Shown here: in pieces, positions 583 to 7,945 of the stretch
How positions within the stretch are numbered: the stretch's first letter is position 1
Layout of the letters: each line of letters opens with the position of its first letter
Assembly (NCBI RefSeq): GCF_011806425.1
Contig: NZ_JAATOV010000006.1
Span: 62,001-126,000 of the forward strand
From: Thalassospira lucentensis
Lineage (GTDB): Bacteria; Pseudomonadota; Alphaproteobacteria; Rhodospirillales; Thalassospiraceae
DNA length: 64,000 bases
Reading direction: 5' to 3'
The notes under the pieces: generated by a model
What the model was told of the DNA's origin: nothing
Databases searched by the model: none
The model's input: the letters and a program-made list of their open reading frames with translations, nothing else
Position numbers and translations under genes: made by a program

Positions 583-840
583 TTATTCCTTGCCGCCACC
601 GCCCATGCCGCCGCCCGATGTATCAAGGATCATCTTGCACGCGCTTGATGTCACGGCATTGCCAATCTGTTGCAGGCCGCCTTGTGTTTGCATGGCGTTT
701 TGCATCGAAAGACTGATGGAATGCGCCATTGTTTGATACACAAGTCCCATCGCCTGGGCTGGGGCTTCGCCCAGAACCTTGACGTTGGTTTGTGTCACGG
801 CGTCCGTGATTTGTGAATTTACAGGGGTGTTGTCTGCCAT
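583..840 (-). CDS. RebB-family R-body structural protein, short form (85 aa)
   Basis: This 85-residue protein begins MADNTPVNSQITDAVTQ, the hallmark opening of RebB-family proteins, followed by NVKVLGEAPAQAMG and an Ala/Met/Gln-rich helix. The C-terminus ends in a Gly-rich tail (GGGMGGGGKE). Compared with the usual 105-115 residues of RebA/RebB, it lacks the second conserved block (SQAATNQGV...). The ATG at 840 is chosen over an in-frame GTG at 846 because GAGGG sits 8 nt upstream of the ATG. It lies 58 bp downstream of the reb gene at 899-1222 with no terminator or promoter motif between them, so the two are probably cotranscribed. Role: probable subunit or modifier of the R-body ribbon, inferred from family and context. 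Confidence 0.88.
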   Translation of the reverse strand: MADNTPVNSQITDAVTQTNVKVLGEAPAQAMGLVYQTMAHSISLSMQNAMQTQGGLQQIGNAVTSSACKMILDTSGGGMGGGGKE

Positions 841-898: not shown

Positions 899-1222
899 CT
901 AGCGGCGGGTTGCTGCCAAAATAATCAAAAGGGGCAAAAGCGTATTGCTGTTATCAGAAGACCCCAGCTTCTTTGTCGCCATTGCACCGGCCATGGTGTT
1001 GGCGGAATAAAGCTGCATGACGCCCTGATTGGTCGCCGCCTGCGAACAGATCGATGACTGTTGCTGGGCCTGGACTGCGTTCTGGAACAGAATGGATGTC
1101 GAATGCGCAGCACTTTGATAAATCGCCCCCATCGCATTGGCTGGGGCCGATCCAAGAACACTTACCGAAGTTTGCGTAACTGCATCGGTAATTTGACCGT
1201 TTACCGGGGTTGGAATAGCCAT
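899..1222 (-). CDS. RebB-family R-body structural protein (107 aa)
   Basis: A canonical-length RebB protein: MAIPTPVNGQITDAVTQ at the N-terminus, a small-residue segment (GSAPANAMG), a long helix rich in Gln and Ala, the SQAATNQGVMQLYSANTMAG block, and a hydrophobic C-terminal stretch (LLPLLIILAATRR). The first 17 residues are identical to those of the protein at 3363-3686, so the two are likely products of a duplication. GGAGG lies 5-9 nt upstream of the ATG. A TCACA-N15-CGTC element lies 43 bp upstream of the start and is the likely promoter for this gene and those at 583 and 1. Confidence 0.93.
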   Translation of the reverse strand: MAIPTPVNGQITDAVTQTSVSVLGSAPANAMGAIYQSAAHSTSILFQNAVQAQQQSSICSQAATNQGVMQLYSANTMAGAMATKKLGSSDNSNTLLPLLIILAATRR

Positions 1223-1264: not shown

Positions 1265-1288
1265 GACGCAAATTAAGAAGAATTGTGA
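1265..1288 (-). promoter_or_regulatory. Candidate ECF-sigma promoter (TCACA-N15-CGTC) for reb gene 899-1222
   Basis: On the minus strand TCACA (1288-1284) and CGTC (1268-1265) are separated by exactly 15 nt and lie 43 bp before the start codon. The same arrangement occurs five more times in the locus. CGTC is a typical -10 element of ECF sigma factors, and a TGTCACA-like -35 is known for some ECF groups. Confidence 0.7.
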
Positions 1289-1321
1289 TCAAATTTCGCC
1301 GGGTTATGTGCCGATCGGCCG

Positions 1322-1546
1322 CTAGCCTGCTTGTGCCGTGATCAAGGCAACCAGTTTGGATGTCGATGTGTTGACGACTTGCTGCATATTGCCTTGCACA
1401 AGCGATGCATTCTCCATCGCAAGGCCGGTGGCATGCGAATGCGATTGCAACGCCATGGCCACCGCCTGGGCCGGGCCTTCGCCCAGAACCTTGACGTTGG
1501 TTTGGGTCACCGCGTCGGTAATTTGTGCATTGACGATGTCATTCAT
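1322..1546 (-). CDS. RebB-family R-body protein, short form (74 aa)
   Basis: The protein starts MNDIVNAQITDAVTQTNVKVLG, the RebB opening motif without the usual five to seven leading residues. An Ala/Met/Gln/Ser-rich helix follows, and it ends TSTSKLVALITAQAG. At 74 residues it is the shortest Reb copy and lacks the SQAATNQG block. A strong GGAGG precedes the ATG by 5 nt, and the stop codon of a possible small upstream ORF lies inside that ribosome-binding region, so translation may be coupled. It is downstream of the reb genes at 1707 and 2015 in the same direction, so the promoter at 2643-2666 probably serves all of them. Confidence 0.9.
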   Translation of the reverse strand: MNDIVNAQITDAVTQTNVKVLGEGPAQAVAMALQSHSHATGLAMENASLVQGNMQQVVNTSTSKLVALITAQAG

Positions 1547-1548
1547 GG

Positions 1549-1686
1549 TTAACCTCCGTCGGCCCCTTCGGCATCTATTACGGCTTGTTCGCTAATTTCG
1601 GTACCGTCACCGATGAAACGGGCGTCAAGGCCGTCATACCAATTGACTTCTTCGTCTGCGTCCTCGCCCTGCGTTTCCGCCACCAC
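1549..1686 (-). CDS. Candidate small acidic protein between reb genes (about 45 aa)
   Basis: A frame open from 1806 to the stop at 1549 overlaps the reb gene at 1707-2003. A GTG at 1686, a few bases downstream of an AAAAGGC and just after the upstream reb stop codon, would give about 45 residues rich in Glu and Asp (for example ETQGEDADEEVNWYDGLDA). It fills the only 160-bp gap in this operon, and its stop lies in the ribosome-binding site of the next reb gene. I recognise no family. It could equally be untranslated spacer; the start is uncertain. Confidence 0.35.
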   Translation of the reverse strand: MVAETQGEDADEEVNWYDGLDARFIGDGTEISEQAVIDAEGADGG

Positions 1687-1706
1687 CGAGGCGCTGCCTT
1701 TTAAAT

Positions 1707-2003
1707 TTACTCCGAGCCGCGTGTCGTCTTTTGACGCACGTTCATCGGCGCTTCGGTAAAAAAATTTGGCTGACCTTCCTGGATCGAAAGCGTTGATTTC
1801 GCGCATTCCATGGTGGTGGCAAGACTTGCCACAGCCAGCTGCTGCTGCTCGTTGACCATATTGGCAAACAAGATGCCCTGGGCTTGCGCTTGCGACAGAT
1901 AGGACTGCATCGCGCCCATGGCCGCACCAGATCCGATGATTGTGGTGTTGGTCTGTGTGACGCTGTCGGTGATTTGTTCGTCGACTTTATCGGGATGTGA
2001 CAT
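1707..2003 (-). CDS. RebB-family R-body protein (98 aa)
   Basis: A RebB-like protein with a variant opening (DEQITDSVTQTNTTIIGSG), a helical Ala/Gln/Met segment (LSQAQAQGILFANMVNEQQQ) and an unusual polar C-terminus (EAPMNVRQKTTRGSE). It resembles the C-terminal domain of the next gene upstream (2015-2602), which also has ITDSV and a xxxLMANMV string, so these two form a subgroup. The spacing to the upstream gene is 11 bp, and AAGGAT precedes the ATG. Function as an R-body subunit is inferred from family. Confidence 0.87.
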   Translation of the reverse strand: MSHPDKVDEQITDSVTQTNTTIIGSGAAMGAMQSYLSQAQAQGILFANMVNEQQQLAVASLATTMECAKSTLSIQEGQPNFFTEAPMNVRQKTTRGSE

Positions 2004-2014
2004 GGTCGTGATCC

Positions 2015-2602
2015 TTACTGGTTACGCCGGTTCATGATTTGCTCGATGCTTTTGGACATGGTGGTCATGCCGATCATCGCGTTTTGCTTTTGACCAGACA
2101 CCATGTTGGCCATCAGAACGCTTTGTGATTGGACTTGTCCCAGCATGGATTGAAGTGCCGCATAGCTCGGCCCGATCCCAATGGTCGAAACACTGGTCAG
2201 CGCGACGCTATCGGTGATCTGGCTTGAAACCTGCGATGGCAAAAATTCTACCCCCTGGCCCTGACCAAAAGATTGTTCGGGCGGCGGTGCAGATTGGCGG
2301 TGTGGGGCATGTTGTCCGTGTTGCCCGTATTGCCCCTGCGCATGTGCCTGATGCCCCTGATGCGGATAATGTTCTTGCGGGTGCGCCGCATGAGAATGCT
2401 CGAAATGCTCCTGCTCATGACGATGCTCATCACCATAGTCGTAATGATACTCTGGGGGTTGTGCTGGGTGGCCCTCATGGGCTTCATAGGTCTCGTGCAC
2501 CTCGTGGTGCTCATGCTGCTGGGGTGGTGCGGATTTTGGCGATTGCGTCTTCTTTGCGCGCGTGCCGCTACGCGCTGGTTTGCCCGATGATGCGGATGGC
2601 AT
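2015..2602 (-). CDS. RebB-family protein with histidine-rich N-terminal extension (195 aa)
   Basis: Residues 1-28 are basic and Ser/Ala/Lys-rich. Residues 30-101 are a low-complexity tract with 20 histidines in 72 residues, mixed with Glu, Gln, Tyr and Gly. Residues 105-120 are a Pro/Gln linker. From about residue 125 there is a RebB-like domain (SSQITDSVALTSVSTIGIGP, then MANMVSGQKQNAMIGMTTMSKSIE). RebB proteins are normally 75-115 residues, so the first half is an accretion. His-rich tracts bind metals or change charge near pH 6-7; known R-bodies unroll on acidification, so a pH-sensing or metal-binding part in the ribbon is conceivable, but that is inference. GGAGAGGG precedes the ATG, and the gene heads an operon with its own TCACA-N15-CGTC promoter. 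Confidence 0.88.
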   Translation of the reverse strand: MPSASSGKPARSGTRAKKTQSPKSAPPQQHEHHEVHETYEAHEGHPAQPPEYHYDYGDEHRHEQEHFEHSHAAHPQEHYPHQGHQAHAQGQYGQHGQHAPHRQSAPPPEQSFGQGQGVEFLPSQVSSQITDSVALTSVSTIGIGPSYAALQSMLGQVQSQSVLMANMVSGQKQNAMIGMTTMSKSIEQIMNRRNQ

Positions 2603-2642
2603 GGCCCTCTCCTTGGCTGGCGAAATTGGGTCTTATCGATAT

Positions 2643-2666
2643 GACGCGCGCGCAGTTGTTTTGTGA
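2643..2666 (-). promoter_or_regulatory. Candidate ECF-sigma promoter (TCACA-N15-CGTC) for the His-rich reb operon
   Basis: TCACA (2666-2662) and CGTC (2646-2643) on the minus strand, 15 nt apart, lie 41 bp before the start of the gene at 2602. The -35 begins only 2 bp after the T-tract of the preceding terminator, which makes a compact unit boundary. Confidence 0.7.
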
Positions 2667-2668
2667 TG

Positions 2669-2700
2669 AAAAAAGCCCGGCAAGCTTGCGCATGCCGGGC
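2669..2700 (-). terminator. Rho-independent terminator of reb gene 2728-3063
   Basis: On the minus strand GCCCGGCA pairs with TGCCGGGC around a 10-nt loop and is followed at once by six T residues (2674-2669). It lies 27 bp after the stop of the upstream reb gene. Confidence 0.85.
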
Positions 2701-2727
2701 GGTATGGCGGCGAAACCCAATGTGGTG

Positions 2728-3063
2728 TTACGACACGGCGGTACCGGTCGTTGCCTTAAGTGCTGACAACAGCGAAAGCATGTTGTCAGGCACGTCGCTT
2801 GCGGCGAGTTTGGACGTGGCAACGGCACCGGCCATGGTATCGACCGAATAAACCTGAATGACGCCCTGGTTGGTTGCGGCCTGTGACGAGATGCCGACCT
2901 GCTGCTGCGTGCTGACGGCGTTCTCATAAAGAATGCCATGTGAATGCGCCAGCGACTGGAACAGCGAGCCCATGGCCATGGCAGGTGCATCACCCAAGAC
3001 CTTAACGTTGGACTGGGTTACTGCATCCGTGATCATGCCATTGACCGGAGTGTTATCAGCCAT
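2728..3063 (-). CDS. RebB-family R-body structural protein (111 aa)
   Basis: A full-length RebB protein: MADNTPVNGMITDAVTQSNV, the GDAPAMAMGSLFQSLAHSHG helix, the STQQQVGISSQAATNQGV block, YSVDTMAGAVATSKLA, and the C-terminal DVPDNMLSLLSAL. It is closest to the protein at 3363-3686, with long shared stretches including DVPDNMLSLL. It has its own promoter motif at 3138-3161 and its own terminator, so it appears monocistronic, which may allow high expression of a main structural subunit. AGGAG lies 6-7 nt before the ATG. Confidence 0.94.
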   Translation of the reverse strand: MADNTPVNGMITDAVTQSNVKVLGDAPAMAMGSLFQSLAHSHGILYENAVSTQQQVGISSQAATNQGVIQVYSVDTMAGAVATSKLAASDVPDNMLSLLSALKATTGTAVS

Positions 3064-3137
3064 TTTGTATCTCCTGGTTGCCTAAAGAAGTGCCGGAATC
3101 CGGCCCTTTTCCGCTTGGTTTGCGGGATCAGTCAGAT

Positions 3138-3161
3138 GACGGGGGGCCTGATCTGTTGTGA
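3138..3161 (-). promoter_or_regulatory. Candidate ECF-sigma promoter (TCACA-N15-CGTC) for reb gene 2728-3063
   Basis: TCACA (3161-3157) and CGTC (3141-3138) on the minus strand with a 15-nt spacer, 75 bp upstream of the start codon. The spacer includes a C-rich run. Confidence 0.7.
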
Positions 3162-3258
3162 CGGAACTTTGCAAAAACCTGATCGGTGCGATTTCGCCGA
3201 TATGGCGTTTGCCTTTGCGATTTTAGCCAGTCGACGTTTAAGCCTGTCGACAACGAAT

Positions 3259-3293
3259 ATCGGGCGGTCGCTGATGGAAGGCGACCGCCCGAT
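3259..3293. repeat. Perfect 13-bp inverted repeat downstream of reb gene 3363-3686
   Basis: ATCGGGCGGTCGC and its exact complement flank a 9-nt loop, 70-100 bp after the stop codon at 3363. No T-tract follows on either strand, so it could be an atypical terminator, an RNA 3'-end stabiliser, or a protein-binding site. Confidence 0.55.
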
Positions 3294-3362
3294 TCAAGCT
3301 CATCCATTGGGGGGAAATCCGTTTCGCGATCACCCTGGCATCAGCCGGGCCCAGAAACGCGA

Positions 3363-3686
3363 TTAGCCTTTGGTCGCTTGAAGCGCGGTCAGAAGCGACA
3401 GCATGTTGTCGGGCACGTCGCTTTTCGCGATTTTCGCGGTTGCAACCGAATCTGCCATCGTATCGACCGAATAGATCTGGATGACGCCCTGGTTGGTTGC
3501 GGCCTGGGACGTAATGCCAAGCTGCTGCTGTGCGCTGACAGAGTTCTCATAAAGGATGCCGGTCGAGTGGGCCAAAGACTGGAAGATTGAGCCCATTGCC
3601 ATTGCCGGCGCATCGCCCAAAACTTTCACATTTGCCTGCGTGACCGCATCAGTGATCTGACCATTTACGGGGGTCGGAATCGCCAT
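3363..3686 (-). CDS. RebB-family R-body structural protein (107 aa)
   Basis: A full-length RebB protein starting MAIPTPVNGQITDAVTQ, with GDAPAMAMGSIFQSLAHSTG, the SQAATNQGV block and the C-terminal SDVPDNMLSLLTALQATKG. It shares its first 17 residues with the protein at 899-1222 and most of the rest with 2728-3063, so it looks like the hub of this paralogue set. AAGGAG precedes the ATG. It stands alone between the sigma gene and the next reb unit, with a promoter motif at 3772-3795 and a hairpin downstream. Confidence 0.94.
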   Translation of the reverse strand: MAIPTPVNGQITDAVTQANVKVLGDAPAMAMGSIFQSLAHSTGILYENSVSAQQQLGITSQAATNQGVIQIYSVDTMADSVATAKIAKSDVPDNMLSLLTALQATKG

Positions 3687-3771
3687 TGTAAAGTCTCCTT
3701 CGTCTACTGTGCTGTGTGTGCTGCGGGGTTGTGATCCTGACGGGGTTTCGCCGTCCCGTTTTCAGTACTAA

Positions 3772-3795
3772 GACGCTTGGTGTTTGGGGTTGTGA
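3772..3795 (-). promoter_or_regulatory. Candidate ECF-sigma promoter (TCACA-N15-CGTC) for reb gene 3363-3686
   Basis: TCACA (3795-3791) and CGTC (3775-3772) on the minus strand, spacer 15 nt, 86 bp upstream of the start codon and just after the sigma-factor stop codon. Confidence 0.7.
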
Positions 3796-3820
3796 CGCGT
3801 CTTTTAAATTTATTTGTGCC

Positions 3821-5101
3821 TTATTGGATGTCGGCATCTTTTAGGTGGTCGCGCGCCAGTTGGACGCGTTTACGGACCGCACAATTGCTTAGACCCAACG
3901 CCTTGGCGATGTCGTCATAGCTGCGATCTTGCACGCACCGCATCAAAAGCGGCTTGCGTAATTTCTCCGGAAGATCCCCTAAAACCGTATCAAGTTGATC
4001 CAGCTTCTCGTTGGTCAAAAACGATTCTTCGGGGCTGGGGACCACGGGCGGGCTGATCGGCGATGCCGGGGCCTCGGTGGCGCCGTGGGTTTCTTCTTTA
4101 TATTCGGCTTTGCGGCGGTTTTGCCGGTGCAAATCAATGCAGGCATTGTGCACGATGCGCGACAACCAGGCGCGATGATTGCGGATTTCATCCATTGATG
4201 CTTCGAACTTGGTCGATGCTTTGACCATCGCTTCGGACAGGGCATCTTGCGCATCATCCATATTGCCCGACATCAGTTTCAAACACTGTTTTAGCAAAAC
4301 ATCCTGCTGCTCAATCCAAAGTGGCCAGAAATTCGGCGCTGCCGGTCCGAGTTCGACGGCCAAATCTGCCGCCAATTCCGCGCCAAGCTCGTCGGCAAAA
4401 TCGGAAAAAGCATCACGGCCACCATCCGGGTCAAGGTTCGGCGTGGTCGGTTGGCTCGGCCATGGGGCGCGGTTATTTGGTTGGCTTGGTTGAGTTGGCT
4501 GCGGCGGCGTGGGCGTTGCCGAAACATCGCCATAGCCCAATCCACCCGGCAACAAACCGCGCAGCGCATCAAGCGGGCTGACCTGCGATCCATCCTGATA
4601 GCCCGGCAGGGCACTGGCAATGATGTCTTCCGGGCGCGGACCGCCGCGTGATGGCTCCAGTCCCGGAAAACCCGCCAGCGGATTAAAATCGGCCGGATAG
4701 CCCGGCGGTGGGCCGCGATGCGCCTGCGGGCTGGCAGAATGTGGTGCGGGTGTTGGCTGCGCCGGGGCGTTCAAAGACGCCTTAAAATCAGGCGCGGCAT
4801 CCGCGGTTTTGGCTGTGTTTGGCGCATTGGGTATTTCGGGCGCTTGGGGCACGTCGTGTGCGGGGGCGGCCAAAAGGTCTTCAATGTCGGGATCGGGTTG
4901 CGCTTTAAGGTGCTGAAGCTTGCTAAGATAATCTTCGGCGACGCGGGCGCGCTGGTCAGGTTTCAGGCGTGACCAAATCGGGGTGACTTTGTCATCGTCG
5001 CCCAGCGCGTGATTCAAGGTTTCCTCAAGACTGCGCGCAAACCGCAGTTCTGCCTCTGTGAAGTTCACCTCATCCTGTCGCGTATTCTTTTCATTTTGCA
5101 C
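3821..5101 (-). CDS. ECF-like RNA polymerase sigma factor with long N-terminal extension, R-body regulator candidate
   Basis: The last 170 residues form a sigma-70 family core: region 2 at about 258-330 (QCLKLMSGNMDDAQDALSEA, then HRAWLSRIVHNACIDLHRQN) and region 4 at about 366-424 (LPEKLRKPLLMRC, YDDIAKALGLSNCAVRKRVQ), without regions 1 or 3, as in ECF factors. The first 257 residues are extra: a charged helical part (1-75), a Pro/Ala/Gln-rich linker (80-225) and an acidic helix (229-252). ECF factors are usually about 180-200 residues. The GTG at 5101 is used because GGAGGG lies 7 nt upstream and no better in-frame start exists. It sits inside the reb locus, and the motif TCACA-N15-CGTC precedes it and the reb genes, so it probably activates them and itself. 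No anti-sigma gene is seen; the N-terminal region may do that job. Confidence 0.9.
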   Translation of the reverse strand: MQNEKNTRQDEVNFTEAELRFARSLEETLNHALGDDDKVTPIWSRLKPDQRARVAEDYLSKLQHLKAQPDPDIEDLLAAPAHDVPQAPEIPNAPNTAKTADAAPDFKASLNAPAQPTPAPHSASPQAHRGPPPGYPADFNPLAGFPGLEPSRGGPRPEDIIASALPGYQDGSQVSPLDALRGLLPGGLGYGDVSATPTPPQPTQPSQPNNRAPWPSQPTTPNLDPDGGRDAFSDFADELGAELAADLAVELGPAAPNFWPLWIEQQDVLLKQCLKLMSGNMDDAQDALSEAMVKASTKFEASMDEIRNHRAWLSRIVHNACIDLHRQNRRKAEYKEETHGATEAPASPISPPVVPSPEESFLTNEKLDQLDTVLGDLPEKLRKPLLMRCVQDRSYDDIAKALGLSNCAVRKRVQLARDHLKDADIQ

Positions 5102-5143
5102 GTTGGATCCCTCCAGTTGACGATTGCAACCTTAGGCTGATTG

Positions 5144-5160
5144 ATGGTTATCGTAACCAT
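5144..5160. promoter_or_regulatory. Perfect palindrome (ATGGTTA-TCG-TAACCAT) at the expected sigma-gene transcription start
   Basis: A 7-3-7 inverted repeat lies directly downstream of the CGTC element at 5167-5164, exactly where RNA polymerase should start transcription of the sigma gene. The TGGT...ACCA core recalls GntR-type operators, but the cognate repressor is not in the window. Confidence 0.5.
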
Positions 5161-5163
5161 TAT

Positions 5164-5187
5164 GACGCGTGATCTGAAAAATTGTGA
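5164..5187 (-). promoter_or_regulatory. Candidate autoregulated promoter (TCACA-N15-CGTC) of the sigma gene
   Basis: TCACA (5187-5183) and CGTC (5167-5164) on the minus strand with a 15-nt spacer, 63 bp before the GTG start. An AT-rich stretch at about 5190-5212 lies just upstream of the -35, in the place of an UP element. Confidence 0.72.
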
Positions 5188-5350
5188 ACATAATATTTAA
5201 ATACTATTTAAGGTTGTAGTTTAAGAACGCATCCAGATCAGGCGCACGCGGCCCAAACAGCCCAAGCGGCCAAAGTGACCGTCTCAGCATCAGGGGCGAG
5301 GACGTTTTAAGTGGCGGTTTCTGTGATGTCGGGCATAAGCCCGCAGTTCG

Positions 5351-5400
5351 CCGGTCGTTGCCGGTCGTTGCCGGTCCTTCCCAGTCTTTCCCGGTCCTTC
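5351..5400. repeat. Five tandem 10-bp repeats upstream of the sigma gene
   Basis: Two copies of CCGGTCGTTG are followed by CCGGTCCTTC, CCAGTCTTTC and CCGGTCCTTC, all contiguous. The period equals about one DNA helical turn. The array lies in the 443-bp gene-free stretch 5102-5544, about 160 bp upstream of the sigma promoter. Apart from this array, the promoter and the palindrome, I see no gene in that stretch. Confidence 0.75.
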
Positions 5401-5544
5401 CCCTCGGCCTGCCGATCACGGGGCAGAGGGGTAAAGGTGTAACGTCCCTTTTTTTCCGGGCATTCCGACCAGCATTCTATGGGCTGGATCGGTGTAGGCG
5501 ATGGCGTGCGAGTGCGTCGGCGTCGTGCATGTCCGGGCCGTCGA

Positions 5545-6135
5545 TTACGCGCCGCCACCCTTTACGTGTGTATTGGCATTGCCGTTTACATTGCCATTCG
5601 CGTCCACGTTCGCATGTCCGTTCGCCCCGGCATTGGCACCACCATCGCTTCCCGCCGCGCCATCTTGGCTTTCCGCCGTCTCGTTGGTTTCGTCATCGCG
5701 GGGCAGGGACTGCAAAATCGCTTCTTCCACGCGCGCTGCAAGAACCTGCATGCGCTGTTCGATTTCCTGATTGATGATGTTGCGAAGTTCATTGGCAATA
5801 TCAAACATCACCTGATTGGCCGCACCGGCCGCCGGATGTGCATTCATATAGGGTGCTCCCTGTGCTGGTGGCTGTGTTTGCGGCTGGGCATGCGGCTGAG
5901 CAGCCGGGTTCGCGCCCCCACGATTGGGCGCCCCCAACGGGGCCTGCGTGCCGGCTTTGACGCTGTCGGCATGCGCACTGATGGTATAGCGCTGATCAAG
6001 AACCTGGGCGCGGGCCCGTTCGGCCGCTTGGGTCATGGCTTCTTGGGTGGCCATATATTCCTGATTAAACGCCTTTCTGACCGCGTCTTTGCGATTGCTG
6101 GCCGTATCAATGCCCGCTTGCGCCGGACCTGACAT
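5545..6135 (-). CDS. Unrecognised protein of the R-body locus (196 aa), translationally coupled
   Basis: The ATG at 6135 overlaps the upstream stop (TAATG), so it is coupled to the 558-residue protein. Residues 1-60 are charged and helical. Residues 65-100 are a Pro/Gln/Ala/His-rich linker. Residues about 108-145 contain a helix (FDIANELRNIINQEIEQRMQ) whose Asn/Gln spacing is compatible with a coiled coil. The last 50 residues are Asn/Gly/Ala-rich with repeated GN, AN and VN dipeptides. There is no signal peptide or membrane segment, so it is likely cytoplasmic. I do not recognise a family. Its place between the sigma gene and the first promoter suggests an accessory or assembly role for R-bodies. 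Confidence 0.8.
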   Translation of the reverse strand: MSGPAQAGIDTASNRKDAVRKAFNQEYMATQEAMTQAAERARAQVLDQRYTISAHADSVKAGTQAPLGAPNRGGANPAAQPHAQPQTQPPAQGAPYMNAHPAAGAANQVMFDIANELRNIINQEIEQRMQVLAARVEEAILQSLPRDDETNETAESQDGAAGSDGGANAGANGHANVDANGNVNGNANTHVKGGGA

Positions 6136-7811
6136 TAGTCCTCTCCTTTGTCTGTGCCGACCGACCCATCCGCTTTGCCCGTGGATTTGTCGATTGTTTT
6201 GCCAGTTGGTTTGCTCGTTGTTTTACCGGTTGGTTTGCCAGTTGTTTTCTGATCCGCATTCGGCATCACGGTTGGTTGTGCATTTGGCACGGTTGGCTCC
6301 GTTGTCACCACTGGTTTCACCACCGGGACACGAAACCCATACTCGGCCAATTCCGCCGGTCTCGGGGCGTTGGCCAAGCCCGTCAGGCTGGTTTCAAGCC
6401 GCCCATTGCTATTGGCGACCATGCTGGCTGCGCGGCACGCACTGTTGTCGCTTTGTCCGGTGCAATTTAAAATCGCCGTCGGGGTGCAGGATTTGCTCGA
6501 TGTCAAAAGCTGGGCTGTGACGTTAAAGCTGGTTTCTTGATTATACTCGACCAAAATCACCAAGGCCGCCCCCTTATCGCCTTCGCTGGGCGGGGTGATT
6601 TGCATCCAAAACGGAATGCAAAGGCTTGCCGATACCGGAATAACCCCGCGCAAGATCGGGCTGGGCAGGGGGCCGATATATTCCAACTGGGCCGGGATCG
6701 CCGGGCGGTTGGCAAAAATAAGCCGGATCAACGCCAAATTGGGCAGGGTATCGGGCGCCACGCTGCCAATCGATTGCTCGATATGAAGCGCATAAGGTCC
6801 GCCGCCATAACTGGCCGTTTCCGAATATGTTTCATGCGCCGGATCGGTCACGGTGGTGTCAAACAACAAGGCGCGCAAATGCGATGGTGCGGATGCTGGT
6901 ACGCCGGTCGCAAGTTCCGCATGCGGGCTTGCCTTTTCGCCAACACTTAACGACCAATCTTGGATCATGGTCGGGGTATCGGTGGCGGTAAGTTTGGCAC
7001 CGATTGCCGTTTGCGCATGGGTTCGCGCGGCGGCCAGGGGCCGACGTTGGGCAAGATCAATCGTCCAATCGGGCTGATCGGCATCGGTCGTGTTCTCGCG
7101 ATCCGCGCCATTCATATCGCCAGTAACACCACCGTTCTTGCCCCGAAGGTGCGGCATGGCGGTGCGGAACATGTCATCGCTGATCACCGCCCCGGCAAGA
7201 TCGGTTTCACTGCCATCACGCTGCGTCGTCGTCAGGCGCCATTGCGCATTGGCACTGTCATAAGAAGGGGTGCTTGCGGCCTCGGAAGACTGGTTCATGT
7301 CGGATCCCTTTTGATTGTGCGCGTGCTGGTGCGCCTGCCGATCTGGCTTTTGATCTGGCTGCTGATGTGCACGTTGCGTGGTGTTTGATTGCATCGATTT
7401 GGCCAGAACGCTGACCGGATCGGGAATATGCCCATCAAGCCCCGATGATTGCGGTGCGGATGCCATGCCCGCATCGCCTTCAAACAGAAACTTCTGAAGG
7501 ATCGAAAACGCCGTTTCGGTCGGCTCGTTGCGGTTTGTACCCGGACTAGGGCTGGCGCTGGGGCCGCTGCCTGTATGGCCGGTATAAATCGAACTGCTGT
7601 TCAAAAGATCCGGTGCCAGTTCCTCAAGCCCGTATTCCCGGCACAACGCCGCCATGACATCCAGCGCATCTTGATGCTCCGGGGGGATGCGTTTGGCGTC
7701 ATCCGCGCGCGCATCGGTGCTTGCCGTGCCGGGCTTTTTGCTGCTGGCATCGGCTTTTGGGTTTTGCGCTGTCGGTTTCGCGGTATTTGTGGGCTTTTCA
7801 CTGTCTGACAT
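6135..7811 (-). CDS. Unrecognised large protein of the R-body locus (558 aa)
   Basis: The ATG at 7811 is chosen because GGGGAA lies 7 nt upstream and the promoter motif at 7922-7945 lies before it; a longer in-frame ORF to 8009 would run through that motif. Residues 1-40 are Lys/Ala/Ser-rich and disordered-looking. Residues 42-65 (PPEHQDALDVMAALCREYGL) look helical. Residues 75-230 are Ser/Gln/Asp-rich. Residues about 260-490 look like a folded, mixed domain with strands (ALIRLIFANRPAIPAQLEYI, SASLCIPFWMQITP) and four Cys between about residues 470 and 500. The last 45 residues repeat TGKPTGKT-like units. No signal peptide is seen. No family is recognised; it is the first gene of the sigma-containing half of the locus and is likely a regulatory or assembly partner. 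Confidence 0.8.
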   Translation of the reverse strand: MSDSEKPTNTAKPTAQNPKADASSKKPGTASTDARADDAKRIPPEHQDALDVMAALCREYGLEELAPDLLNSSSIYTGHTGSGPSASPSPGTNRNEPTETAFSILQKFLFEGDAGMASAPQSSGLDGHIPDPVSVLAKSMQSNTTQRAHQQPDQKPDRQAHQHAHNQKGSDMNQSSEAASTPSYDSANAQWRLTTTQRDGSETDLAGAVISDDMFRTAMPHLRGKNGGVTGDMNGADRENTTDADQPDWTIDLAQRRPLAAARTHAQTAIGAKLTATDTPTMIQDWSLSVGEKASPHAELATGVPASAPSHLRALLFDTTVTDPAHETYSETASYGGGPYALHIEQSIGSVAPDTLPNLALIRLIFANRPAIPAQLEYIGPLPSPILRGVIPVSASLCIPFWMQITPPSEGDKGAALVILVEYNQETSFNVTAQLLTSSKSCTPTAILNCTGQSDNSACRAASMVANSNGRLETSLTGLANAPRPAELAEYGFRVPVVKPVVTTEPTVPNAQPTVMPNADQKTTGKPTGKTTSKPTGKTIDKSTGKADGSVGTDKGED

Positions 7812-7921
7812 TGATGCATTCCCCAGTGTGGCCCTTGCAAATGGCAATCGGACGGGGGGCTTGCGCTGTCGCCCAGACTGTCTTTCATGCGCTGCAAGGA
7901 TTGAACAGTTCCTTGCAAACA

Positions 7922-7945
7922 GACGTACCGGGATCGGGGATGTGA
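7922..7945 (-). promoter_or_regulatory. Candidate ECF-sigma promoter (TCACA-N15-CGTC) for the 558-aa/196-aa pair
   Basis: TCACA (7945-7941) and CGTC (7925-7922) on the minus strand with a 15-nt spacer, 111 bp before the ATG at 7811. It is the sixth and outermost copy of the motif, marking the locus border next to the tRNA. Confidence 0.68.

Follow-up and report, generated by a model that had tools for sequence, protein, structure and literature searches.

TCACA-N15-CGTC, a putative promoter element of an ECF-type sigma factor at the reb locus and at unlinked genes of Thalassospira lucentensis

Introduction

Which regulator switches on the genes for R-bodies, ribbons of coiled protein, and which proteins act with them? 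Both the switching of R-bodies and their partner proteins are poorly known, and the reb locus of the marine bacterium Thalassospira lucentensis raises the question in a concrete form. In a 64,000-base stretch of its genome (assembly GCF_011806425.1, contig NZ_JAATOV010000006.1, positions 62,001 to 126,000 of the forward strand; hereafter the window), the pattern TCACA, 15 bases, CGTC recurs six times on the minus strand before reb genes, before a sigma factor gene and before a gene for a 558-residue protein. The original prediction, made from the letters of the window, took these copies for a probable sigma regulon. Our analysis indicates that TCACA(A)-N15-CGTC is in all likelihood the -35/-10 promoter recognized by the extracytoplasmic function (ECF)-type sigma factor of the locus, which would activate the reb locus, its own gene and a set of unlinked genes.

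Results and discussion

The element in the window and in its own genome

The six predicted copies were recovered at exactly the coordinates given for them, on the minus strand and with 0 mismatches, and they were the sole matches in the 64,000 bases of both strands. In 100 dinucleotide shuffles of the window the mean was 0.59 matches and the maximum 3. The spacer was 15 bases in 6 of 6 sites, as had been claimed, and the claimed 41-111 bp to a start codon agreed with the 40-110 bases that we measured from CGTC to the start. Beyond this genome the spacing is not absolute, as other families have spacers of 15 or 16. The elements and genes of the locus, all in window coordinates, are the following:

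7922..7945, minus strand: P1, promoter-like element TCACA-N15-CGTC, 110 bases 5' of the ATG (7811) of the 558-aa protein gene
6135..7811, minus strand: gene of the 558-aa protein, function unknown, heading a likely two-gene unit
5545..6135, minus strand: gene of a 196-aa protein, function unknown, overlapping the end of the 558-aa gene
5164..5187, minus strand: P2, promoter-like element of the sigma gene, 62 bases 5' of its GTG (5101)
3821..5101, minus strand: sigma gene, 426 aa, ECF-type, with Pfam regions 2 and 4
3772..3795, minus strand: P3, promoter-like element, 85 bases 5' of the reb gene starting at 3686
3363..3686, minus strand: reb gene, 107 aa (PF11747)
3138..3161, minus strand: P4, promoter-like element, 74 bases 5' of the reb gene starting at 3063
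2728..3063, minus strand: reb gene, 111 aa (PF11747)
2643..2666, minus strand: P5, promoter-like element, 40 bases 5' of the reb gene starting at 2602
2015..2602, minus strand: reb gene, 195 aa, RebB domain C-terminal, heading a likely reb195-reb98-reb74 unit
1707..2003, minus strand: reb gene, 98 aa (Pfam)
1322..1546, minus strand: reb gene, 74 aa (Pfam)
1265..1288, minus strand: P6, promoter-like element, 42 bases 5' of the reb gene starting at 1222
899..1222, minus strand: reb gene, 107 aa (PF11747)
583..840, minus strand: reb gene, 85 aa from the ATG at 840 (PF11747), without a site of its own

The copies had been called far beyond chance, and the numbers agree: the off-locus match density predicts 0.027 matches for a single strand of 7.9 kb, and the Poisson probability of six or more is 4.8e-13, a value that is post hoc for the pattern. 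When all patterns of a 5-mer, a spacer of 10-20 and a 4-mer were counted on the locus strand, TCACA-15-CGTC ranked first (6 occurrences), followed by two patterns with 5, one of which was the same pattern shifted by one base. The post-hoc problem of pattern choice is absent from the tests made in other genomes. The whole-genome scan proposed with the original prediction bore it out in part. The 4,496,213 bases hold 36 matches (7 for the pattern read backwards), six of them in the locus, which is strongly enriched; the other 30 lie elsewhere, at about chance density. These 30 copies do not overturn the regulon, because the locus is far denser and because five of the 30 occupy conserved promoter positions at unlinked genes.

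Conservation within Thalassospira

Among the 29 Thalassospira genomes searched (identified by G numbers), all have a homologue of the sigma factor and 24 have reb genes. Each of the 24 reb-bearing loci carries 5-7 sites with a spacer of 15, all on the reb strand, and in each, as in the window, the sigma gene lies inside or near the reb cluster. Site positions correspond among the six loci that were laid out in detail. The site before the 558-aa gene is the variable one: its spacer is 16 in G005, G006, G012 and G026, and G020 has no exact copy. Within 300 bases upstream of reb genes we counted 103 sites with spacer 15 and none with 14 or 16. The mean of 359 letter-permuted control patterns in the same regions was 0.47; the highest control, with 29, was ATCAC, a one-base shift of the same sites, and the next had 9.

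Co-occurrence with the sigma factor outside the genus

The comparison was extended to 33 reb loci of 32 genomes from other genera of the order, class and phylum; the reb locus of G194 was not contained in its stretch, and two genomes with weak reb matches, G489 and G761, were left out. All 11 loci with a reb-type or weak sigma match in the stretch have sites (29 in total; permuted controls: mean 0.18, highest 13, again a one-base shift). Sites were found in only two, G106 and G344, of the 22 loci without a sigma in the stretch. A whole-genome search of the 21 genomes concerned with the sigma profile detected a reb-type sigma in precisely these two (277 and 243.7 bits), the G106 gene being on a different contig from reb. 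For the remaining 19 genomes (20 loci) the best match did not exceed 58.5 bits, the ordinary ECF level, and 2 of the 19 gave no match. Counting as strong a reb-type sigma of at least 243.7 bits in the whole-genome search or an E value of at most 2e-46 in the locus stretches, sites precede reb genes in all 11 genomes that have a strong reb-type sigma and in 0 of the 19 that lack one (Fisher 1.8e-8; as 4 vs 11 lineages, 7e-4).

A later search covered the order of G344; it was planned before the genomes were fetched, the expected result not being spelled out. Among 61 genomes, reb genes were present only in G344 and in G1065, of the same family. In G1065 there is a reb-type sigma, and the reb strand carries six sites, of which five are at most 300 bases from a reb domain and one is at about 400 bases; an additional site stands before its inverted sigma gene. 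The sigma gene is opposite to the reb strand in G195, G196, G198, G199, G200 and G1065, and in the five Magnetovibrio-type genomes the site of the inverted sigma gene is inverted likewise. This co-occurrence across families, even on a separate contig or on the opposite strand, supports the predicted sigma regulon at the level of genome comparison.

The sigma factor and its probable own promoter

Pfam places region 2 of the 426-aa sigma factor at residues 269-330 and region 4 at 368-420, with about 38 residues between them. There is no further significant domain, region 3 is absent, and a long Pro-rich extension forms the N terminus. The best solved structural relatives are the ECF sigmas SigW, SigH and SigE. 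The protein is thus an ECF-type (group IV) sigma factor. It is 97% identical to a sigma named Thalassospira lucentensis and 48-70% identical to the sigmas of three named relatives, which places the genome in Thalassospira. Region 4 of the reb-type sigmas has a common RKR-x-Q motif. Homologues are short in Sneathiella-type genomes (220-246 aa, in stop-to-stop frames) and in Magnetovibrio-type genomes (296-308 aa in 4 of 5, 392 in the fifth), so the longest N-terminal extensions belong to the Thalassospira branch. The extension is strongly diverged in G009, G013 and G017, which lack reb genes, while regions 2 and 4 are conserved. No anti-sigma was recognized in the locus, the neighbouring 558-aa and 196-aa proteins having no significant family match; a cognate anti-sigma gene beside the sigma gene is not universal among ECF sigmas.

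The original prediction also made the sigma factor autoregulated, and the comparison argues for this: all 29 Thalassospira genomes have a site upstream of the sigma gene, as do, in other families, G194, G106, G344, G195, G196, G198, G199 and G200. At P2 the CGTC continues into CATAAT, a sigma70-like -10 (TTCACA-N18-CATAAT). This extension reads CATAAT in 24 of the 29 genomes and CATACT in the other 5; neither was present in the 23 sites that precede the 558-aa gene or stand where it formerly lay, nor in the reb-site consensus. Such conservation suggests an overlapping sigma70 start that may provide basal expression of the sigma gene.

Genomes without reb genes

The five Thalassospira genomes without reb genes keep both the sigma gene and its upstream site. 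In four of them (L090, L091, L092, L093) a second site lies 277-379 bases further upstream; L089 (G017) has none. At the sigma locus of these genomes we found no match to the 558-aa or 196-aa protein and no convincing gene between the two sites, and the second site is taken as the probable left-over promoter of the 558-aa gene, now an orphan in tandem. The ratio of nonsynonymous to synonymous substitution (dN/dS) in the sigma core is about 0.05-0.09 in 9 of the 10 reb-less pairs (for example, dN 0.038 vs dS 0.549), dS being saturated in the tenth pair. The sigma core is therefore under strong purifying selection in these genomes.

Sites elsewhere also persist. G010 has them at a lipoprotein gene and at the yggS place described below, and G019 has a shortened homologue of an unlinked membrane protein with an exact site about 58 bases before the ATG. 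A DNA search, which may miss diverged copies, gave no match to the membrane protein in G009, G010, G013 and G017; co-loss of its gene with reb was considered and rejected because of the shortened homologue and its site in G019. Since the reb-less genomes retain the sigma gene, selection on it and sites elsewhere, the sigma factor very probably serves non-reb genes too.

Unlinked candidate targets

The six locus sites scored 21.4-32.6 with a weight matrix built from 113 distinct sites of relatives. Among the 28 of 30 off-locus sites that were scored, three reached 27.1-29.8, two 18.5-18.8 and the others at most 17.7. Five off-locus sites of this genome are conserved (L001, L003, L005, L019 and L190). 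One lies upstream of the gene for a predicted membrane protein of 327 aa, for which an exact site is found 36-49 bases before the ATG in 24 of 24 reb-bearing genomes; the model of this protein (predicted local distance difference test, pLDDT, 66.2) had no PDB match at E of at most 0.001. Another gene, for a 61-aa DUF1508 protein (match 5.8e-7), has an exact site 37-45 bases before the ATG in 16 of 16 cases. It was located by DNA search in 16 of 29 genomes (16 of 24 reb-bearing and 0 of 5 reb-less), a search that diverged copies may escape. Gene-body matches not covering the site located 10 of the 24 membrane protein loci and 14 of the 16 DUF1508 loci. Over the 29 genomes, TCACAA-N14-CGTCWW occurs 250 times vs 29 for the reversed pattern, a rough control.

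The families downstream of sites were surveyed in 60 further off-locus hits from G001-G016, minus three G008 copies near-identical to those of G007. Family T1, of Pro-rich proteins, was present in 11 genomes and in our own, where its member has 411 aa (L190 1503-2767); it has a weak match to PF05618 (0.089, below the cut-off). The T1 site ends 8 bases before the ATG, a distance that would suit a leaderless transcript. Transcripts from ECF promoters usually start about 6-9 bases after the -10. Family T2 lies downstream of sites in 7 genomes, T3 and T5 in 2 each, T4 (lipoprotein-like, by eye) in 2 genomes and our own, and T7 in 3 genomes, 2 of them with low-scoring sites.

In 8 genomes and our own, a further site lies between yggS and a response-regulator gene, with no convincing gene:

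L005 1501-1524 (G000:C4:832592-832615): yggS-place site, own genome
L234, L250, L254, L257, L267, L270, L284, L291: yggS-place site, relatives

It follows the response-regulator gene and precedes yggS, which is on the opposite strand. By eye, most copies have a terminator-like hairpin ending just 5' and, on the 3' side, TTATCCACA, which we take to resemble a DnaA box. A small or antisense RNA is a possible product of this site. A group joined by tblastx (L248, L251, L253, L275, L290 and L293, from G003, G004, G005, G012, G015 and G016) showed no clear gene; in L251, L253 and L290 the site stands shortly before a hairpin. As judged from conserved site positions, the regulon is very probably wider than the reb locus and includes several unlinked genes.

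Plasmid-borne reb loci

We examined 6 of the 17 records found for named reb plasmid loci. The reb cluster on the megaplasmid NC_006569.1 of Ruegeria pomeroyi DSS-3 contains Crp/Fnr and sigma genes together with reb genes, and has three TCACG-N15-CGTC sites (L294 7924, 10575 and 11565), one base apart from the Thalassospira -35. Two of the sites precede reb genes, one of these two falling within the final part of the sigma coding sequence, and the third precedes a hypothetical gene of the cluster; the sigma gene itself is not preceded by any. Burkholderia pyrrocinia likewise has Crp/Fnr, sigma and reb genes. One of its reb genes has a TCACG-N15-CGTC site 104 bases upstream, within the final part of an annotated hypothetical gene; TCACGAA-N13-CGTT precedes another reb gene and TCACA-N16-CGTC a hypothetical gene. 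The sigmas of these two loci score 52 and 59 bits against the reb-type profile, the ordinary ECF level. The reb plasmids of Azospirillum, Bealeia, Eleftheria and Vibrio have no reb-strand sites shortly before reb genes, and these records have no annotated or detected sigma (that of Vibrio is unannotated). Three TCACG copies occur in Eleftheria, of which one is within the cluster on the opposite strand, and a single TCACA copy with spacer 14 lies elsewhere in Bealeia. On plasmids, no sigma near the strength of the reb type was present among the 15 matches listed of 127 (ECF, below 60% identity). The plasmid positives are thus few, two in number, and the Burkholderia case is weak.

Weighing the evidence

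Several observations weigh against a promoter of the locus sigma factor. Related genomes are not independent of each other. Sites go together with no more than weak sigma matches in G192 (sigma 21% identical) and G427 (a sigma fragment). The 19 site-less genomes include incomplete ones (G154 79%, G414 84%), and stray copies occur in this group, with spacer 14 in G157 and G456, on the opposite strand in G414, and more than 1 kb upstream of reb in G561, which has one TCACG site as well. Stray opposite-strand copies, with spacer 16 or 14, are also present in G005 (one) and G006 (two). In the Sneathiella-type genomes G357, G483, G579 and G655 no sigma-gene site was found at up to 1 mismatch, yet these four do have sites before reb genes; autoregulation is therefore not universal. 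The scan for sigma70-like promoters was at chance (4 found vs 4.4 expected), and conservation is the only line of evidence for the sigma70 reading of P2. Finally, in tests that covered the off-locus copies in part, conservation was seen for five of the 30 and not for the other 25, so the nine bases alone are insufficient; beyond them, A after TCACA (85%), A or T after CGTC (88%) and T-rich upstream DNA are favoured.

Another regulator, a different ECF sigma or one of ECF41 type, might use the sites as promoters, the nearby sigma gene being incidental. Such an arrangement would draw on the likeness of the -35 to the ECF41 consensus TGTCACA-n16-CGTC (PMC3426412) and on the several other ECF-like matches that the genomes hold. 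We consider it improbable: ordinary ECF matches are present in 17 of the 19 site-less genomes, whose reb genes nonetheless lack sites; sites mark the sigma gene itself; and in front of TCACA the TG shows no conservation (T in 34% and G in 46% of 128 distinct spacer-15 sites).

Box, spacer and box could also be the footprint of an activator or repressor with a repeated binding site rather than a -35 and a -10. A Crp-Fnr regulator is described as controlling reb elsewhere (PMC5527310), and Crp/Fnr genes are annotated in the reb clusters of Ruegeria and Burkholderia. The boxes, however, do not repeat each other in direct or inverted orientation, CGTC is reported to be similar to the -10 of many typical ECF promoters (PMC3426412), and the sites are on the coding strand, mostly 8-110 bases before starts, the T1 distance being one that would suit a leaderless transcript. 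We give this explanation very little weight. That the copies are functionless, from chance or from duplication of paralogous reb units with their upstream DNA, is scarcely credible, as the spacers vary from genome to genome (their mean pairwise identity per promoter class is 0.39-0.63, vs a box identity of 1.0 that is due to the selection of sites), sites also precede the sigma, 558-aa and unlinked genes, and the site at one unrelated gene in 24 of 24 genomes already contradicts it.

A model of the regulon

With the locus sigma factor as the reader of the element, we infer from sequence comparison that it binds the sites and that transcripts start there. The sigma factor and RNA polymerase would start transcription at the six promoters of the reb locus, serving the 558/196-aa pair, the sigma gene itself (positive feedback) and four reb units. 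At least five unlinked promoters of this genome would also be used, those of the 327-aa membrane protein, the 61-aa DUF1508 protein, the 411-aa Pro-rich protein and the lipoprotein-like protein, and the non-coding yggS site. The housekeeping polymerase, acting through CATAAT, may supply a low basal level of sigma that primes the loop, and the primed positive loop could produce an all-or-none R-body switch in few cells, as reported for Pseudomonas aeruginosa PA14; the basal step and the bistability are both inferred.

More tentatively, and with some doubt on our part, R-bodies may be one interchangeable module of a wider, self-amplifying envelope programme driven by this sigma factor and selected even without reb. 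The unlinked membrane protein, the lipoprotein, the Pro-rich protein (with its weak match to a putative zinc-protease family), the DUF1508 protein and a possible non-coding RNA would then act in assembly, release or contact with eukaryotes.

Other features of the locus

A search of the whole genome with PF11747 returned seven genes, every one of them in the locus. By eye, positions 1-468 of the window hold a further Reb-like gene that runs off the left end and reaches 192 aa with its continuation in L031. The 558-aa protein had no match in Pfam, NCBIfam or PHROGs, and its AlphaFold2 model was unusable (pLDDT 33.9); the 196-aa protein had no significant family match, its one Pfam hit (E 0.15) being non-significant. 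The proposed division of the locus into transcription units is plausible, but the terminator scan was at chance (13 found vs 11.9 expected). A hairpin with a T-run, seen by eye and missed by that scan, ends directly upstream of P5.

Comparison with known systems

Our literature search, confined to texts other than figures, supplements and most subscription papers, found no report of a TCACA-N15-CGTC reb element or of unlinked targets. The nine-base signal has near-fixed spacing and follows one sigma family, so it could serve as a marker of the R-body programme that can be read from genomes. The candidate partner genes that it points to are new, and neighbourhood searches could not have revealed them because they are unlinked. 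Thalassospira and Ruegeria pomeroyi DSS-3 are species in which these predictions can be tested.

ECF41 sigmas have the promoter TGTCACA-n16-CGTC (PMC3426412), which resembles the element described here, a spacer of 15 falling within 16 +/- 1. Membership of the locus sigma in ECF41 was rejected, since it has no C-terminal extension (of its 426 residues, region 4 reaches to 420) and the TG is not conserved. In Azorhizobium caulinodans the reb genes are under the repressor PraR and the Crp-Fnr activator RebR; the two systems share dedicated control of R-body genes, there of an operon, and differ in the regulators, the word sigma occurring 0 times in the text of PMC5527310. A putative sigma, HP2.3, is described as often lying beside 'Group 2' reb genes (PMC3583457), and is probably of the same family as the locus sigma. 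That report deals with synteny only, the word promoter occurring 0 times in its main text. Sigma genes beside reb genes are also reported in PMC3764935 and PMC13430693.

The closest precedent is FecI2 of P. aeruginosa PA14, whose sigma gene also lies within the reb cluster and is reported to be needed for reb expression (PMC8322103). The alternative sigmas studied in PA14 are all reported as autoregulated, with a primary regulon of 28 genes for FecI2 (PMC8322103, PMC4362757), and R-body gene expression there is described as stochastic, in 0.26% of cells (PMC8322103). The regulon and a motif figure of FecI2 are published (PMC4362757). PA14 differs in needing also the transcription factor RcgA (PMC8322103), whereas Thalassospira would have several separate promoters inside the cluster and a sigma factor with a long N-terminal extension. 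Seen beside these systems, the reb locus of T. lucentensis appears to belong to an ECF sigma regulon of known type and of unexpected extent, in which a sigma gene beside reb had been reported before and the element and its candidate unlinked targets appear to be new.

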